Shown here: piece by piece, positions 4,892 to 19,500 of the stretch
How positions within the stretch are numbered: the first letter of the stretch is position 1
Layout: every line of letters begins with the position of its first letter
Virus record (IMG/VR): IMGVR_UViG_3300024518_003407
Span: 1 to 27,335 of that record
Source: a virus
Reading direction: 5' to 3' (one strand)
DNA: 27,335 bases
Notes under the pieces: model-generated
Databases searched by the model: none
What the model was told of the DNA's origin: nothing
What the model saw: the letters and a program-made list of their open reading frames with translations, nothing else
Position numbers and translations under genes: made by a program

Positions 4892-5973
4892 AATTTCGCC
4901 TCTTTCAGGAACTGATAAGAATGATATTTTTGCAGGCCATGAAGAACGGAGAACCTCGCTGTGTCCTTCGCGCCCGTCTCGTCTGTCGCTAATTCAATTC
5001 GTTGACAGATACCGTCAAACATATCGAAAATAACCTGATGGTCATGCAACAATACGCCGCCCGCCAATATGACGGAACCCCTGTCATCGGTATCGAAACC
5101 GATTTTTGCCAGATACCTTGAGATCTCAGATCTAAACTTTTCTTGCCCGAAATACATAGCTGTCATCTCGCCCAGGATAGGCATGAAATCGAAGTGTTTA
5201 CCCTTGTAAGTATAGTCACCTTCCCGCATGATTTTGAGTAATTGAACCTGGTTTAAATTGCGCCCCGTGCATTCGTAGACCACACGCGCAAGTTCTTCTT
5301 GAATTTCCAGGAAACCGAAGAAGACACTATGCGTTTCAAGCGTGGCAAAACTCCCTTTAAATAGGCAAAACTCCGCGCTGTTAGTGCCAAAACATCCGAT
5401 AAGAACTTGCCCATCCGAACACATGCGATCCGCCCCTGATGCCGTCAGCCTATGCCCTTCCCACCGGAAAAGAGCATGATACGTGACCGCCGCACCTTGC
5501 TCAATCGCCTCAACTGATGTGAACGTGACCATTCTCGCCTTGTGTCTGTCGATACAAATTGAATCCATCATGAGCCAGTCTCTAATGTCCTTAATTTGGC
5601 TGATATGTTGCGCCGGTAGAGCCAGAGCCAGGGAGACGTTGACATGTTCTGAACATCCAATTGTATCCAGCACTCTTGCGACCGCGAACAACAGCCCCAA
5701 CCGAAACTGGTTTGTCAGGTACGTTTCGGAGTCCCTCGTAATGGGGGATGGGTTGAAATCCTGAACCTGCTCGCCTACTAAACCGGCATACTCTGCCGGG
5801 GATGATATTGACCAGGAATCCAAACCTAAGAAAGGGGATTGTGACGGATAAAATAACGCCGGAAATATGAACTCTTGAATATTGCCAAAACTCGTAAAAA
5901 AGCTTATCTTCCATTCGCTCGTTCCGGGATCGCCTTGCATGTAAATTGTTGGGTTCTCGATACTCGTTGTCAT
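4888..5973 (-). CDS. ParM/StbA-like actin-type ATPase
   Basis: A 361-aa protein from the ATG at 5973. The chosen start follows AGGAGA-AACCACA; the upstream in-frame ATG at 6000 would translate this ribosome site itself. Actin-superfamily phosphate loops are recognisable: phosphate-1 region MQGDPGTSEWKISFF near the N-terminus, phosphate-2 region QVLIGCFGTNSAEFCLF mid-protein, and an adenosine-type loop SVILAGGVLLHD near the C-terminus. Length fits plasmid ParM/StbA and Alp proteins (about 320-380 aa), whose filaments push DNA copies apart. The loops depart from the textbook DxGxGxTK, so ATPase activity needs testing. It is followed by a coupled small gene and preceded by short direct repeats that could serve as centromere or operator. 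In a phage this favours plasmid-like lysogeny or intracellular virion positioning. Confidence 0.65.
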   Translation of the reverse strand: MTTSIENPTIYMQGDPGTSEWKISFFTSFGNIQEFIFPALFYPSQSPFLGLDSWSISSPAEYAGLVGEQVQDFNPSPITRDSETYLTNQFRLGLLFAVARVLDTIGCSEHVNVSLALALPAQHISQIKDIRDWLMMDSICIDRHKARMVTFTSVEAIEQGAAVTYHALFRWEGHRLTASGADRMCSDGQVLIGCFGTNSAEFCLFKGSFATLETHSVFFGFLEIQEELARVVYECTGRNLNQVQLLKIMREGDYTYKGKHFDFMPILGEMTAMYFGQEKFRSEISRYLAKIGFDTDDRGSVILAGGVLLHDHQVIFDMFDGICQRIELATDETGAKDTARFSVLHGLQKYHSYQFLKEAKL

Positions 5974-5993
5974 TGTGGTTTCTCCTGTTGGTG
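5974..5993 (-). promoter_or_regulatory. Shared ACCAACA-AGGAGA leader of the ParM gene
   Basis: The minus-strand leader reads ACCAACAGGAGAAACCACA just before the ATG at 5973. It belongs to a family of four leaders in this window (also before 9781, 10994 and 13365) that combine ACCAACA, AGGAGA and AACC. Confidence 0.6.
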
Positions 5994-6066
5994 CGTTCAT
6001 GGTGACGTGATAGGGCTAAGATGTCACCATTTATTATGAAAATAAGATGCTGTGGTGTTACGTTGT

Positions 6067-7542: not shown

Positions 7543-8624
7543 GCAGCAGCCTCCACAAATTCAACGCTCATATTTTCACCGCTGACGAATTCAACGGCCA
7601 TTTCGACTTCGTTCTGGAAATCTTGCAAGGCGACCAGTGAAGCCACAGGCACTCCAATTTTTACGAATCCATTGACTGACACGATATTCGCACCTGCCAG
7701 GAGCTTTCCCACATAGGCGTTTTGCCTCATGACGGCGGCCTGTAAGCTCTCAAAAAACTCAGGTTCTTCTATCCCCGCCCGATGCAAAACAGACTCAGGA
7801 ATCGCCACGCCGCGTCCCTGCTCAGGAAAAGGCGGCGCGTCTGACGTATCAATGCCTGACCTCAACGTTTCAAACACCATGCCTGCCGGGTTGGTGAGAT
7901 TGTCCCATGATACGGAGTCTCTAACGTGTCGGAATGCTCCTTCAATTTCTTCTTTGGAATATCCTTCTTTTAGCATAGCGAATAATCCACCTTGTTCAAC
8001 ATTGGGGAAGCCTGCATCTTTTACGCTTTTTAAAACATTAAAAAACCAATCTTTGTCATCATCATCATTACTCAATGATGATGTAGATGTATTTATTAAT
8101 GTCTTTTTATATGTACTTATAGCGTCCTTTTTTGGGGGGTCGGACGTGCCGTCTTGCCCTACTGAAATAGGCATCTGCGTATTAGCCACAGGTTTACACG
8201 TATTAACCACAGGTTTACACGTATTAACCACAGGTTTACAGGTATTAACCACAGGTTTACAGGTATTAACCACAGGTTTACAGGTATTAACCACAGGTTC
8301 ACACCCTTCCTCACTTTCGGCTATATCAGAGACTTTGGAGGATGTTTTTATGTATATCCTCCGCCTGTGTTTCTTGTCATATTCAAGGCGTATGTAGCCT
8401 TGTTTCCTAAGCTGCCCTACCCATTTCGAGACAGCTTGACGGCTTACTCCGTAAAGTTCCGCAAAATATTCGTTCTCTGCCGTGCAATATCCAAATAATT
8501 TCGTCAGGGCTGTAATTTCTCCATAGAGCAGTTTCGCGTTCGGATAAATCTTCTTATCATACCGGACATCAGCCGGAATGATGGCGAAATACGCCGGGTT
8601 TTGTTTCTCTTGTTTTTCTTCCAT
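7539..8624 (-). CDS. Phage replication initiator (lambda O-type organisation) with winged HTH
   Basis: The 361-aa protein has an N-terminal winged helix-turn-helix (about residues 10-95: AIIPADVRYDKKIYPNAKLL, ENEYFAELYGVSRQAVSKWV, RKQGYIRLEYD with a basic wing KKHRRRIYIK). A seven-residue repeat CKPVVNT follows in six copies (about 108-149), then a low-complexity Ser/Asp linker and a C-terminal DnaD/O-like helical domain with GYSKEEIEGAFRHVRDSV and a conserved NPAGMVFETL, the usual helicase-loader contact type. In the family the N-domain binds iterons at the origin and the C-domain recruits helicase loader. The heptapeptide repeat is encoded by perfect 21-bp DNA repeats, so the origin probably lies within the gene, as in lambda O. 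It sits in the replication operon next to a DnaQ-like nuclease. Confidence 0.75.
   Translation of the reverse strand: MEEKQEKQNPAYFAIIPADVRYDKKIYPNAKLLYGEITALTKLFGYCTAENEYFAELYGVSRQAVSKWVGQLRKQGYIRLEYDKKHRRRIYIKTSSKVSDIAESEEGCEPVVNTCKPVVNTCKPVVNTCKPVVNTCKPVVNTCKPVANTQMPISVGQDGTSDPPKKDAISTYKKTLINTSTSSLSNDDDDKDWFFNVLKSVKDAGFPNVEQGGLFAMLKEGYSKEEIEGAFRHVRDSVSWDNLTNPAGMVFETLRSGIDTSDAPPFPEQGRGVAIPESVLHRAGIEEPEFFESLQAAVMRQNAYVGKLLAGANIVSVNGFVKIGVPVASLVALQDFQNEVEMAVEFVSGENMSVEFVEAAA
8179..8304. repeat. Six 21-bp iterons inside initiator gene: putative replication origin
   Basis: Six head-to-tail 21-base units occupy 8179-8199, 8200-8220, 8221-8241, 8242-8262, 8263-8283 and 8284-8304. The plus-strand unit is GTATTAACCACAGGTTTACA followed by C or G; units 1 and 6 each carry one further change. 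Spacing is two helical turns. Each unit includes TTAACCACA, one mismatch from the DnaA box TTATCCACA. An AT-rich tract (about 8020-8125) flanks the array, as expected of an unwinding element. The array keeps frame, encoding CKPVVNT repeats. Confidence 0.7.
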
Positions 8625-9781: not shown

Positions 9782-9812
9782 AATGGTTTCTTCTCCTGTG
9801 TTTGTTGGTTTG
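9782..9812 (-). promoter_or_regulatory. Shared ribosome-binding leader before 93-aa gene
   Basis: The minus strand has AACCAACA, five bases, AGGAGA, then AGAAACC directly ahead of the ATG at 9781. It is a member of the four-copy leader family; the gap between the two conserved blocks is longer here. Confidence 0.55.
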
Positions 9813-9820
9813 CGTTATCT

Positions 9821-10211: not shown

Positions 10212-10994
10212 CTATACCAGTTCTTCGAGGTTTTCCGCCATAGAGTAGCGAGCAGACCTGAACTCAGAATTATCATTCTGCGTGATATGATCAAGCCATG
10301 TCAAGAAGTCGTTTGGCAGATTTTCGATTGACGAAAATTGGAACACATCATATAACTGCTCAGGGGACAGGCTTCCACCGGTCTTTATTTCGTCAATAAC
10401 TGTTTGAACGTCGCATTCCCCCGCGTCCAGGCGGTCAACTACTGAATCATACACGCTCTGAAGATTTTTGTAGACGATCCCGTCAAACATTTCAAGATAA
10501 TCTTTTTTAGCGGGCGAGGTTTGCGCGACTGTATTCCAGTTGTTTTTGGATGCGATCCCCTTCGAAGAGGAGTCAAGGTATGCTCTCAAAAAGTCGATAG
10601 CTTCACTGATGTCATCCAACGCCTCTTTCAATTTTGATTCTGTCAGAGATAATCTGTCTGAAAGGTTCTGGCGGGCGTTCATCTCTTCTTTTGTGAGGTG
10701 TCCCGATTTGTACGCTTCTAAAATGTGGATTCCTGAAAGGATGAAAGGAGACCATGTAGGATCGACGTAAAGAAGAGCCACCACTTCATGATGTGTTTTT
10801 TGCTGCTCGTTCAGGATGATATTTTGACGAGTAAGCAGGATTTCGAGAAGTTGTTTAAGGTCTTCTTTGTGGGCTGAATCGGCTTTGTGACCGGCTTCTG
10901 TGGTTATCATCTGTTCTCCTTTACAGAAAGTCGAAAGGATATTTCGACTTTTGTTGTTGGCTGCTATTACGTTTTTAACTTGTTCTAAATACAT
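10212..10994 (-). CDS. Unknown 260-aa helical protein, first gene of leftward operon
   Basis: First gene after the leftward promoter at 11116-11144. The product is almost wholly helical, with coiled-coil-like stretches in the N-terminal third (HKEDLKQLLEILLTRQNIIL) and middle (SLTESKLKEALDDISEAIDF). It has no cysteine motif, membrane span or enzyme signature. Two starts are plausible: ATG 10994 behind the shared CAACAACAGGAGATAAACC leader, and ATG 10910 behind an equally strong AAAGGAGAACAG, which would give 232 residues; two products of one frame are possible. As the first early gene it may act in host takeover or early regulation, but that is inference. Family not recognised. Confidence 0.6.
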   Translation of the reverse strand: MYLEQVKNVIAANNKSRNILSTFCKGEQMITTEAGHKADSAHKEDLKQLLEILLTRQNIILNEQQKTHHEVVALLYVDPTWSPFILSGIHILEAYKSGHLTKEEMNARQNLSDRLSLTESKLKEALDDISEAIDFLRAYLDSSSKGIASKNNWNTVAQTSPAKKDYLEMFDGIVYKNLQSVYDSVVDRLDAGECDVQTVIDEIKTGGSLSPEQLYDVFQFSSIENLPNDFLTWLDHITQNDNSEFRSARYSMAENLEELV

Positions 10995-11033
10995 TGGTTT
11001 ATCTCCTGTTGTTGGTTTGGTTTATGTTGGTTA
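10995..11033 (-). promoter_or_regulatory. Shared leader with duplicated ACCAACA block, first leftward gene
   Basis: The minus-strand 5' leader holds TAACCAACATA (11033-11023), then AACCAACA, two bases and AGGAGAT close to the ATG at 10994. The distal block is identical over 11 bases to plus-strand sequence inside the predicted small RNA at 11176-11281, so it would pair with that RNA. Confidence 0.6.
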
Positions 11034-11115
11034 ATACGTTTACTCTGAACTTGCGTGTAGAGCAGATATGCCATTAAGCATTTACTCCGCTGTTACCGTC
11101 AAACTCATTATGTCT

Positions 11116-11144
11116 AAAGTAAGCATAAAACCTTTTTTTGTCAA
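11116..11144 (-). promoter_or_regulatory. Leftward promoter of the early/replication operon
   Basis: Minus strand TTGACA (11144-11139), 17-base spacer, TACTTT (11121-11116). Around the -10 and start site TTATG and CATAA form an inverted repeat ten bases apart (about 11108-11128), a candidate operator. It lies just downstream of the terminator of the predicted small RNA, so the early operon has its own start. Confidence 0.6.
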
Positions 11145-11175
11145 GTAAAAACATAAAATATTTATAGTTTTGTGT

Positions 11176-11203
11176 AAAAAACAAGGGGAGGAAACCACTC
11201 CCC
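11176..11203 (-). terminator. Intrinsic terminator ending the leftward small RNA
   Basis: On the minus strand GGGGAG, a seven-base loop and CTCCCC form a stem followed by TTGTTTTTT. It lies 78 bases downstream of the small-RNA start site and upstream of the early-operon promoter. Confidence 0.7.
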
Positions 11204-11281
11204 CCCTCATACTAACCAACATAGGAGATCAAGAGAGAGGTTGGGAGCCACGCTCTTGAGAAGAACCACAGGCATTCTCTG
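11176..11281 (-). ncRNA. Predicted antisense small RNA (~106 nt) complementary to shared leaders
   Basis: A strong promoter (11288-11315) and an intrinsic terminator (11176-11203) bracket about 106 bases with no credible coding frame. The RNA would start near 11281 with a CACAG...CTGTG hairpin, pass through a pyrimidine-rich single-stranded middle, and end in the terminator stem. The middle contains ATCTCCTATGTTGGTT, the complement of the AACCAACA-AGGAGA leader used by four genes here. Against the leader of the membrane ATPase gene, 14 of 15 bases match across AACCAACA-N-AGGAGA. It could therefore block ribosome binding in trans. The RNA also shares short complements (TCAAGAG, CTCC) with the rightward leader RNA. 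Existence is predicted from signals only; no known family is claimed. Confidence 0.5.
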
Positions 11282-11287
11282 TGATAC

Positions 11288-11315
11288 AGTATAAGCGATT
11301 TTGTCGAAAAGTCAA
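11288..11315 (-). promoter_or_regulatory. Promoter of the leftward small RNA
   Basis: Minus strand TTGACT (11315-11310), 16-base spacer and TATACT (11293-11288); predicted start near 11281. No coding frame follows before the terminator at 11176-11203. Confidence 0.6.
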
Positions 11316-11343
11316 GGGGAACGGACGTATTTTTATTTTGAGA

Positions 11344-11372
11344 TTGACAGGCGGCCTATTATGCACTATATT
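11344..11372 (+). promoter_or_regulatory. Rightward near-consensus promoter of ParB-MTase operon
   Basis: TTGACA (11344-11349), exactly 17 bases, TATATT (11367-11372); predicted start near 11379. The hexamers and spacing equal those of the ParB-terminase promoter at 4614-4642, so both may respond to the same host sigma70 polymerase at similar strength. Confidence 0.75.
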
Positions 11373-11378
11373 AATTAC

Positions 11379-11473
11379 GCTACCCAAACATGTTTCATTA
11401 GGCCAGGAGACTCTTGAAGTGGCAACGCTCAAGACGCGATAAATCGCGGGTAGCAGTCTCCCGGCCTTTTTTT
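11379..11473 (+). ncRNA. Structured leader RNA with three-way junction and terminator U-tract
   Basis: Downstream of the rightward promoter, GGCCAGGAGACT (11401-11412) pairs with AGTCTCCCGGCC (11455-11466), eleven pairs with one A-C mismatch, followed by seven T (11467-11473). Inside are two further hairpins: 11413-11433 closed by a GCAA tetraloop, and 11435-11448 with stem CGCGA/TCGCG. This is a three-stem RNA ending like an intrinsic terminator, 16 bases before the ATG of the methyltransferase gene. The closing stem also buries an AGGAGA. It may be a free ~95-nt RNA, an attenuator, or a ligand- or RNA-responsive switch. A functional likeness to c4-type phage antisense RNAs is possible but not shown. 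Confidence 0.6.
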
Positions 11474-11488
11474 GTGGAGAATCGAATC

Positions 11489-12733
11489 ATGGAAAAAGAA
11501 TTTCATCCAATCGCCAACATATTCCCTATGATGTCAGAAGAGGAGACAAAGGGACTGACAGAGGATATTTCACAGAATGGATTAAAGGAGTCAATCTGGT
11601 TACACCCTGACGGACGTATTATTGACGGTAGGAATCGCTATAATGCCTGTCAGCAGGCAGGGGTTGAACCAGTGTTTAACACTTGGAATGGAAAAGGCTC
11701 TCTTGTGGCCTTCGTGATCTCGCTCAACTTGCACCGCCGTCACCTTTCATCTATCCAAAAAGCCGCCGTTGGTTTTGAGTCCCTGCCATTCCTGGAAGCA
11801 GAGGCAAAAGAACGTCAGCTTAGAACATCAGCAAACAGGGAAAAGGCAAAAGAGGAGCAAAATCTTGTGGTGCAAAAAATTGCACAACAAGATTTTGCTC
11901 CAAAGGAAGAAAACAAGTCACGAACACAGGCGGCTAAGATGGTTGGAACGAATAAGCAGTATATTTCTGATATGAAGAAGTATAAAGAGGAGTGTCCAGA
12001 TGTGTTTGACGCTGCCAAAGAAGGGAAAGTCAATGGTTCGCAGGCAAAAGCCATTGCTAAACTTGACGAACCAACACGTAAAACCGTCATTACTCGGATT
12101 GCGCAAGAGCCTGAAACACCCGCAAAAAGCATTTTGAGAGATGAACAGCAAAGAAAACGAGTCAATATTGCAAAGGATAGTGAAACGTCAACACGCGCCT
12201 GTCATCAGTCTATACATGAAATAACAACAAAGTATCGCGTTATTTATGCCGATCCTCCTTGGTTTTATGGGAATGACCAAACCAAAGCCATGCCAGGAAG
12301 TACACGGCCTGAAGATCACTATGTCGCTATGCCCTTGCAAGACATCTGCGATCTGCCTGTTAAACGGATAACCTTAGACGATGCTGTCTTGTTCTTGTGG
12401 GTAACATCCCCTTTGTTGGAAGAAAGTTTTCAGGTCATCAGGGCGTGGGGATTCAAATATAAAACGTCGTTCGTATGGGATAAGGTCAAGCATAATTTCG
12501 GACACTATAACAGTGTTCGCCATGAATTGCTTTTAATCGCTACTAAGGGAAGTTGTACGCCTGACAAGAAGATATTGCATGATAGTGTCCAGAGTATAGA
12601 GAGAACCGAACACAGCGCAAAACCTGACGTATTCAGAGGATTTATTGACGAACTGTATGACGTTGGAAACCGTATCGAGTTATTTTCACGAACTAAAAAC
12701 GAAGGGTGGGATTCATGGGGGAATCAATTATGA
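11489..12733 (+). CDS. ParB-N / MT-A70 adenine DNA methyltransferase fusion
   Basis: From ATG 11489 the product is 414 residues; GTGGAG lies nine bases upstream. A longer frame from TTG 11414 would cross the leader-RNA hairpin and is disfavoured. The N-terminal ParB-like domain (about 1-95) includes LTEDISQNGLKESIWLHPDG, IIDGRNRYNACQQAGVEP and ISLNLHRRHLSSIQKAAV, with a helical HTH-like section (MVGTNKQYISDMKKYKEECP). The C-terminal MT-A70 domain has the catalytic DPPW at 255-258 in YRVIYADPPWFYG, plus AVLFLWVTSPLLEESFQVI and KTSFVWDKVKH with its H-N-F-G loop. Such fusions methylate N6 of adenine in phage DNA, likely for protection or regulation; the ParB part would choose the site. First gene of the rightward operon, overlapping the next gene by four bases. 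Confidence 0.85.
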   Translation: MEKEFHPIANIFPMMSEEETKGLTEDISQNGLKESIWLHPDGRIIDGRNRYNACQQAGVEPVFNTWNGKGSLVAFVISLNLHRRHLSSIQKAAVGFESLPFLEAEAKERQLRTSANREKAKEEQNLVVQKIAQQDFAPKEENKSRTQAAKMVGTNKQYISDMKKYKEECPDVFDAAKEGKVNGSQAKAIAKLDEPTRKTVITRIAQEPETPAKSILRDEQQRKRVNIAKDSETSTRACHQSIHEITTKYRVIYADPPWFYGNDQTKAMPGSTRPEDHYVAMPLQDICDLPVKRITLDDAVLFLWVTSPLLEESFQVIRAWGFKYKTSFVWDKVKHNFGHYNSVRHELLLIATKGSCTPDKKILHDSVQSIERTEHSAKPDVFRGFIDELYDVGNRIELFSRTKNEGWDSWGNQL

Positions 12734-13335: not shown

Positions 13336-13364
13336 TAACCAACAAACCAACACAGGAGAAACCA
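13336..13364 (+). promoter_or_regulatory. Shared leader of the membrane ATPase gene
   Basis: Plus strand TTAACCAACA, then AACCAACACAGGAGAA (13345-13360) and ACCA before the ATG at 13365. This is the best match to the predicted small RNA: 14 of 15 positions pair, with one C-A mismatch. Confidence 0.6.
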
Positions 13365-16584: not shown

Positions 16585-19500
16585 TTAAGACTCGATACAC
16601 ACTTGATCTGAACCGATATACACCAAATCATTTTTGATATATATAGTATGGTCAAGCGTAAGTCCTTCCAATCCTTGTAAGGTTAAGGTAGACGTGAAAT
16701 CATCCAAATTGATAGTTTTTTCCCTAAGCTGAAACACTTTTCTCGTTTCTACGTCCCCGTTTTTATCGACAATCAACGATAGTGTCGCCTCTAATTGGTC
16801 AAGAAGGTCAATAGGCAAATATTTAAAGTCTTGACCCTGGTATGACACCACCCAAGCGGGGGATGTGTAGAGTTTCAGGAGTCTATTTTTGATAAGGTTG
16901 ACCGTCGCCGTGTTTCGTGTCCAGTCAAAATTAAAATCCCATGTCTTACCCGTGTAATTTTTATTAGCAGAATATAAATCAGAATCGTCTACCGTTCTAT
17001 AATACGAGGTATCCGCGCCCGTTTTGAATCTCCTGTCAATCTCGACAGCAGATACAGCGTAATTTATAATCACCCTGTCAAGCACGTTCTCAATGTCTTT
17101 TTGCGCGCTGTAGGTGATAGCCTCATATTCAAAGATCTCGTCTTGCACGCTATCCTTGTCAAGGAGAGGCAAAAAAGAAATGACAAGCTTTCCCTGCTCA
17201 TTGAAAGCAAACGAACCCGCAAAAGAATTGAGGATATTTCTAATCCAGAAACCGAGTTCTTTATTGACCAGAATCATTCCCGCACACGTGTACGAATTGA
17301 GAATGCAGAAAGTTTCCCCCTCTGCGAAGGATGTCGTGTCTTTCTCCCATGCCAAATTTCCGACAAGATCCGCCACGTAATCGAGCAGATCCTCTATAAT
17401 GTCCACAGGATTTGTGAGGAGTATCCCCCCTGACCATTTCCCCTGACACCGGACAGTCACAACGCTATCCCCTTGATCTGCTGAAAAAGTGAGTTTGGCT
17501 ATCGCGCCCTGACTCTCATAATCGTCGGATTCGTCAAACGTCCAGCCTGACGGCGTCAATACATCGTCAACCCAGACAGAAACTGTGTTGCCTTGTGCGA
17601 CGGAAGCAATAGTCCAGCCTGCCACGCAATACACAAAATTCACGCTATCAATGAGAGGAGCGACCCAAACCCCAGCATCTGAGTTTTCTATACAATCCCC
17701 ATATATGAGAGGGCGGTTGACGTTTTTCTGGTTGTTGCCAGGATTCGTATAAAGGGCTGTGGTAGGGAATACCACCTCTGTCAAGGCGTCTATGGAATCC
17801 TCTCCGTCTACCGTGCTTGTCACTTCGACCGCTGTTCCGTATGCCGTCCATGTGCCATCAACAAGAGCGAGATCCGTGCCTGTGATTTGTTCGGGAAAAT
17901 CAATTGGTGTGTTGTCTGACGTGTTGAGCAGTTGATATGTTTCACCAGCAGGGTTGGAAAAGTTCATATTATAAATTTGACCGTTGAATCCATTTGTACC
18001 GTCCCCCCCAACATAAATGTCTTCGTTGGAAGTAGGGGTATCTTCGGTCGTATCGAATGCTGGAGTTCCAAACTTTTGCACTCTATGATTTCCATCTGAT
18101 ACAAAAATATCACCCGCCGAATCAATAGCAATACCAAAAGGATTATTGAATTGCCCATCACCAGAGCCAGAACTCCCAAACTGCGAGATGTACGATCCAG
18201 AAGAATCAAATTTTTGGACTCTGTGATTGCTTTGATCTGTTACGAAAAGATTTCCTTCCGTGTTGATTGCGATCATTGCCGGATGCGTAAATTGCCCATC
18301 ACCAGAGCCAATACTCCCAAACTGTGAAAGGTACGATCCGGAAGAATCAAATTTTTGGACTCTGTGATTGCTCACATCTACTACAAAAATATTTCCTGCC
18401 GAATCAAATTTAATCCCGATTGTACCACTTGTAAATTGTCCATTCCCAGAACCAGAACTCCCAAACTGTGAAAGGTACGATCCGGAAGAATCAAATTTTT
18501 GAACTCTGTTTTGGATGCTATCCGTGACAAAAATATTTCCTGCCGAATCAATATCAATTCCTGACGTTCTTGTAAATTGTCCATTCCCAGAGCCAGAACT
18601 CCCAAACTGTGAAAGGTACGATCCGGAAGAATCAAATTTTTGAACTCTACTATTTCTACTATCCGTGACAAAAATATCACCCGCCGAATCAAAAACTATA
18701 TCTATCGGTTTGTTAAATTGTCCATTCCCAGAGCCAGAACTCCCAAACTGTGAAAGGTACGATCCGGAAGAATCAAATTTTTGAACTCTGTGATTATTCT
18801 GATCTGCTACAAAAATATTTCCTGCCGAATCAATTGTCACGCCTCGTGGAAAACTAAATTGTCCGTTCCCAGAGCCAGAACTCCCAAATTTTGAGATATA
18901 CCCAAAAAGAGACTGTTCGAAACAATCTCCTGTATTACAAATCGACAAAAACCCTGGTGTCGTTCCCCACTGAAATATAGGGAAGTTTGCCCCGGTTGAG
19001 GCTGTTACGTCTGATGTGATTGTGGTGTAAGTAGGAGAGCCTGTCAGTGCGTCCGGCGTGTATTTCACGTAGTAGAAATCATTTGCATCTATCCCGATTT
19101 CCAGACGGGTTGAACCAAAATTATTATTTTCGAGACGGAATAAAACCTCTGCGGTTCCGGTGGTGTCCCTGTTCATTTCCATTGACCATTCCCATTCAGA
19201 CGACACATCCGTAAAGAAGAGAGGCTCAACCGTTGCGTAGATGTATGACTCATACGCTGCCTTTGTCGCCCCGCCTGCGTTGTCCAGTGCGTAGGTTGTG
19301 GTAGTGTCCAGGGTTGGGGCTGGGGGATCTTCCGGTTCGACTGCTTGATCTGCCAGAAATTTAATATTCTGAATCGTCAGGGTATAAGCGGAGATGACCC
19401 CGTTAAACAGGGGCTGAAAGTCTGCGAAGACAAACCCAGGATACGCAAACCCCTGGTAGAGTGCTAATTGACCGCCGATGAACTCTTCACGTCCGCAGAT

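Follow-up and report, generated by a model that had tools for sequence, protein, structure and literature searches.

The divergent region of the viral genome analysed here carries the signals of a complete minus-strand transcription unit, and it is proposed that this interval encodes an intrinsically terminated antisense RNA that would repress phage translation in a c4-like, multi-target manner, a reading that is given somewhat less than an even chance. The main rivals to it are control of the neighboring 260-aa operon in cis only and a leftover leader that has no function.

The window, that is, the whole stretch of DNA analysed, is a 27,335-base virus record, identical end to end to bases 5907-33241 of the IMG/VR contig IMGVR_UViG_3300024520_000186 (40,008 bases), which is its parent contig and supplies extra sequence of the same genome, not an independent relative. 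Gene starts were called by a simple ORF-plus-Shine-Dalgarno caller. The gene content includes a terminase, a replication initiator, an exonuclease, a ParM-like partition protein (matching phrog_691), a ParB/MT-A70 methylase fusion and an FtsK/HerA-like membrane ATPase (weak FtsK/DUF87 matches). Nearly all genes of the virus are oriented leftward; the ParB-methylase, 208-aa and ATPase genes run rightward from the divergent region that contains the candidate antisense RNA. Two sets of tandem repeats were also observed, one of 42-bp units within the replication-initiator gene (window 8178-8303), encoding repeated PVVNTCK units, and one in a 1069-aa tail-region protein (window 18069-18888), encoding NHL-like repeats of the FDSAGNIFVTD type with about 80% DNA similarity.

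The initial annotation had described a leftward unit consisting of a TTGACT-16-TATACT promoter, about 106 transcribed bases and an intrinsic terminator, and its promoter and terminator signals are present in the sequence. The RNA is predicted to form two hairpins, one at its 5' end and one at the terminator, joined by a linker, and the features of the region are as follows:

11288..11315, minus strand: sigma-70-type promoter of the candidate RNA, TTGACT-16-TATACT (10/12)
11176..11281, minus strand: predicted antisense RNA of about 106 nt (promoter and terminator signals, folding, unpaired probabilities)
11228..11259, minus strand: 5' hairpin UCAAGAG...CUCUUGA of the candidate RNA (MFE and centroid structure)
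11210..11229, minus strand: linker GAUCUCCUAUGUUGGUUAGU, mostly single-stranded and complementary to leaders (unpaired probabilities, duplex and accessibility energies, shuffles)
11181..11210, minus strand: intrinsic terminator hairpin, followed by a T-run to 11176 (-19.7 kcal/mol)
11207..11275, minus strand: 22-codon ATG frame within the RNA, probably not a gene (shuffle P 0.005; codon use unlike phage genes)
11116..11144, minus strand: TTGACA-17-TACTTT, a promoter from which the 260-aa operon may be transcribed separately, between the RNA and the gene (9/12, weak)

The terminator hairpin (11210-11181, minus strand) has 13 pairs and is the best-scoring terminator-like site within the scanned region. 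In the 40,008-bp parent contig, the TTGACT-16-TATACT unit is the sole promoter (at least 10/12) with a stable terminator 50-260 nt downstream; the one further promoter/terminator pair within 260 nt has a marginal stem (-12.0 versus -19.7 kcal/mol), and six Markov shuffles yielded none. These signals suggest that the antisense RNA is transcribed. The linker UCUCCUAUGUUGGUUAGUA is predicted to be exposed, being mostly unpaired between the two hairpins with a few bases partly paired, and the overall fold stability of the RNA is unremarkable (z -1.2). An imperfect palindrome, CTGTGATACAG (window 11279-11289), lies at the predicted RNA start as a single copy in the 40-kb contig and is a possible operator.

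The plus strand at 11214-11228 reads AACCAACATAGGAGA, the complement of the RNA linker. Its relation to a composite ribosome-binding leader, claimed earlier for four genes, was confirmed, the ATPase leader (AACCAACACAGGAGA, 13345-13359) sharing 14 of 15 bases with AACCAACATAGGAGA. The leader of the 260-aa gene contains both blocks, TATTAACCAACATA and AGGAGATAAACC, with extra repeats between them, and the additional 11-base identical block assigned to it is indeed there (RNA bases 59-69, corresponding to contig 16929-16939 and window 11023-11033). The two remaining leaders were also located, that of the 93-aa gene fitting the pattern with one mismatch (9806-9792) and that of ParM, CACCAACAGGAGAAACCACA, preceding the ATG at 5973; both carry shorter versions of the two blocks. 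With up to three mismatches allowed, the leader pattern has 11 matches in the window versus 3.0 expected.

Pairing was scored as net energy, which is hybridisation minus the cost of opening both strands (accessibility-corrected). This RNA-RNA interaction prediction over the leaders, a check that the initial annotation had proposed, set eight of the 59 scored start-site entries apart (-17.6 to -9.0 kcal/mol; the next at -6.0, the mean at -0.6), four of them outside the window and absent from the initial annotation:

10995..11036, minus strand: target 1, the 260-aa gene leader, with two pairing blocks, reachable in cis too (-17.6 kcal/mol net)
13337..13364, plus strand: target 2, the leader of the gene for the FtsK/HerA-like membrane ATPase (-17.1 kcal/mol net)
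9782..9813, minus strand: target 3, the 93-aa gene leader, which precedes the exonuclease and replication-initiator genes (-12.8 kcal/mol net)
5974..5994, minus strand: target 4, the leader of the ParM-like gene, which starts at ATG 5973 (-11.8 kcal/mol net)
outside the window: 88-aa gene (-11.3 kcal/mol net)
outside the window: 176-aa gene (-10.8 kcal/mol net)
outside the window: 65-aa gene (-9.7 kcal/mol net)
outside the window: 63-aa gene (-9.0 kcal/mol net)

All eight belong to left-part genes or to the ATPase gene, and none to an identified structural gene. The computed hybridisation energy of the linker with the 260-aa leader was -24.1 kcal/mol over two blocks.

For the linker, a segment selected post hoc, the summed energy of the best four leaders was reached by 0.07% of shuffled linkers (P ~0.0007), and by 0.8% (P 0.008) when the anti-Shine-Dalgarno part was kept fixed. 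Cofolding of the whole RNA gave P 0.007 against the 260-aa leader in trans and P 0.027 against the ATPase leader, so that pairing with these two Shine-Dalgarno regions is predicted above the level of shuffles. The raw hybridisation energy, with structure ignored, was equalled in 593 of 12,401 genome windows (4.8%), and raw duplex energies between the leaders and the full RNA were dropped as a criterion, being uninformative because structure does not enter into them. Pairing with the leaders beyond chance was judged significant, not overwhelming: the RNA is predicted to expose a seed whose complementarity to several mRNAs exceeds chance, a result weakened by the raw-energy background and by the generic leader class described below.

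The 260-aa gene, whose leader is the best predicted partner of the candidate RNA, follows it directly on the minus strand. Because of this arrangement, which had not been noticed in the initial annotation and which resembles those of P1 c4 and P4 CI RNA, read-through transcripts would mask the 260-aa gene in cis. In the read-through transcript, the predicted pairing probability between the linker and the 260-aa leader is 0.9-1.0 at most positions; in a transcript without the candidate RNA, this leader is mostly open. It may be, although this is considered unlikely, that the RNA is only the 5' leader of the 260-aa operon, acting as an attenuator: transcription would mostly end at 11181, an antiterminating factor would permit read-through, the anti-leader would still mask the 260-aa Shine-Dalgarno, and the other leader matches would be incidental, arising via a generic A/C-rich signal. 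The adjacency of RNA and gene on one strand, the top pairing in two blocks with the 260-aa leader, the high pairing probability in cis and the generic leader class are all in keeping with control of this operon in cis only. However, the ATPase leader is nearly as strong a partner (-17.1 versus -17.6 kcal/mol; whole-molecule P 0.027), and a candidate promoter (9/12), downstream of the terminator and ahead of the 260-aa gene, may allow the operon to be transcribed without read-through.

The leader class itself was found well beyond this genome. The pattern AACCAACANAGGAGAN{0,3}AACC was present in 23 viral stretches of 34-67% GC, with ATG following in 18 of the 20 distinct ones, and a permuted control (ACAACCAA replacing AACCAACA) was present in 33 stretches, with ATG following in 21 of the 26 distinct ones. 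In five other contigs containing TAACCAACANAGGAGATC, it stands ahead of an ATG in 5/5, and no second example of the candidate RNA was found among these five. Unstructured A/C-rich spacers around the Shine-Dalgarno are, judging from these sequences, a common phage translation signal; as the motif is generic in phages, leader similarity needs no common regulator, and many targets will seem to exist for any RNA that is complementary to a leader of this kind. On the strength of the permuted control, the sharing of leaders was rejected as proof of a regulon. Three leader copies (gtaagcAACCAAC..AGGAGA..AACCATG) were observed within 1.2 kb of an unrelated virus of 67% GC (L121, 2442-3661), so the leader type recurs inside single phage genomes.

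It is likewise unlikely that the plus-strand copy at 11214-11228 is a leftover generic ribosome-binding leader without a gene, its antisense complementarity being functionless. Such a relic would fit the commonness of A/C-rich leaders in viruses, including the ATG counts for pattern and permuted control and the TAACCAACANAGGAGATC copies ahead of ATG in all five other contigs; however, no ATG or GTG at a usable distance is present here, the flanking AACC..ATG of real leaders is missing, and, on the opposite strand, its position corresponds to the mostly unpaired linker of a complete transcription unit. What appears distinctive, once the generic leader class is set aside, is this start-codon-less leader complement, carried in the linker of a transcription unit on the minus strand.

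The interval had also been described as having no coding frame, which does not hold, because an ATG at 11275 opens a frame that runs to a TGA at 11207 (minus strand) and encodes 22 residues. A small mRNA for this hydrophobic peptide (MPVVLLKSVAPNLSLDLLCWLV), with the leader match arising in its codons by chance, is considered quite improbable. The frame fills the RNA and stops at the terminator, and one of such length was obtained in just 0.5% of shuffles; however, its 5' UTR of ~5-7 nt lacks a properly spaced Shine-Dalgarno, and its codon score is lower than that of 99.7% of real 22-codon gene chunks and falls inside the off-frame distribution, codon use thus disfavouring the frame as a gene. 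Finally, it is very improbable that no stable RNA is made and that the region holds just a terminator separating the divergent units and a promoter-like sequence that arose by chance. Promoter-like sites are indeed not rare (28 observed versus 20 expected in 12 kb), but the present promoter/terminator pair is the stronger of just two in 40 kb and has no counterpart in the shuffles.

In the antisense mechanism preferred here, the linker would carry an anti-Shine-Dalgarno block, UCUCCU, joined to UAUGUUGGUUA, the complement of the A/C-rich spacer upstream of the Shine-Dalgarno. The strongest pairing would be with the leader of the immediately downstream, same-strand 260-aa gene, which would be masked in cis upon read-through of the terminator by the polymerase and in trans on transcripts beginning nearer that gene. 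The ATPase, 93-aa/replication and ParM leaders, together with those of a few other left-part genes, would be paired more weakly, and the targets would be jointly held down until their mRNAs exceed the RNA in number. A block of translation by the RNA is suggested by analogy with c4 and with anti-Shine-Dalgarno sRNAs (PMC8216469), and joint control of the replication, partition and ATPase operons is the weakest of the steps that we infer. The earlier claim that one RNA could silence several phage operons is therefore retained in part: pairing, accessibility, the transcription-unit signals and four more leaders speak for it, whereas the generic nature of the shared leader speaks against it. The broader idea that this RNA is a translational master switch is doubtful; it would repress some eight early genes or operons, covering replication, partition, the membrane ATPase and the operon next to the RNA, and would thereby restrict copy number or keep the genome in a quiescent state. 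Should the multi-target antisense reading hold, the RNA would serve c4-like immunity or copy control by acting on a whole viral gene set via a leader type common in phages, which would suggest a general route for a phage to tune its own translation, or that of a competitor phage, with one short RNA.

Among known RNAs, c4 is situated upstream of its own target on the same strand, as is the candidate RNA with respect to its best target. The C4 antisense RNA of P1/P7 (Rfam C4) is phage-encoded and blocks translation in trans by pairing with the ribosome-binding site (RBS), its block b' lying on the RBS and its block a' on upstream sequence for specificity; RNase P cuts a longer transcript to ~77 nt, which has three stem-loops with a' and b' in loops (PMC12197685, PMC5320573). 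By computation, the candidate RNA similarly pairs with the RBS and upstream sequence of its target, using two blocks against the 260-aa leader. It differs in its dedicated promoter beside the 5' end and its intrinsic terminator, whereas C4 is processed, in its two main hairpins and one continuous linker as opposed to the stem-loops P1-P3 of C4, and in its several predicted targets. No Rfam family was found over the window at gathering score, and no C4 hit in 10900-11600 even at E up to 5; sub-threshold Rfam matches, e.g., AniS, were far below the cutoff. Because of the lack of a covariance-model match and the different fold, the candidate RNA is not classed as C4; it would work like c4 and is best called an unproven variant of phage antisense RNA.

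The P4 CI RNA is complementary to sites in its own transcript and controls replication genes; it is made by processing and causes premature transcription termination via seqA and seqC pairing (PMC4825925). The linker of the candidate RNA is similarly predicted to pair with the 260-aa leader in its own read-through transcript (mostly at probability 0.9-1.0), but its targets are Shine-Dalgarno leaders and its 3' end is an intrinsic terminator. In Firmicutes anti-Shine-Dalgarno sRNAs such as RoxS/RsaE, several mRNAs are bound at their Shine-Dalgarno regions by one segment rich in C or in pyrimidines (PMC8216469). The use of one segment against several Shine-Dalgarno regions is common to both, whereas RoxS/RsaE are chromosomal with metabolic targets, the predicted targets of the candidate RNA are phage genes, and its predicted pairing reaches past the Shine-Dalgarno into the preceding spacer.

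In the search for independent relatives by proteins, the sole matching contig was 100% identical to the window, and terminase relatives were at most 33% identical. No close relative was found in genomes, DNA matches were absent in phages and none was meaningful in plasmids, and the 260-aa and ParM proteins had no tblastn match in phage records. No independent homologue was found in which linker and leaders could be compared for covariation.

On the opposite strand, a second complete unit was observed upstream of the ParB-methylase gene (window 11344-11472, plus strand), with a TTGACA-17-TATATT promoter and an RNA of ~94 nt. This RNA (11379-11472) had no Rfam match and was rejected as a sponge for the antisense RNA, the interaction being no better than in shuffles (P 0.33). 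It folds into a three-way junction closed by the terminator (z -3.3), and its first 7 bases, GCUACCC, are complementary to GGGUAGC at 11448-11454, beside the junction (shuffle P 0.005), a pairing that may form a pseudoknot.
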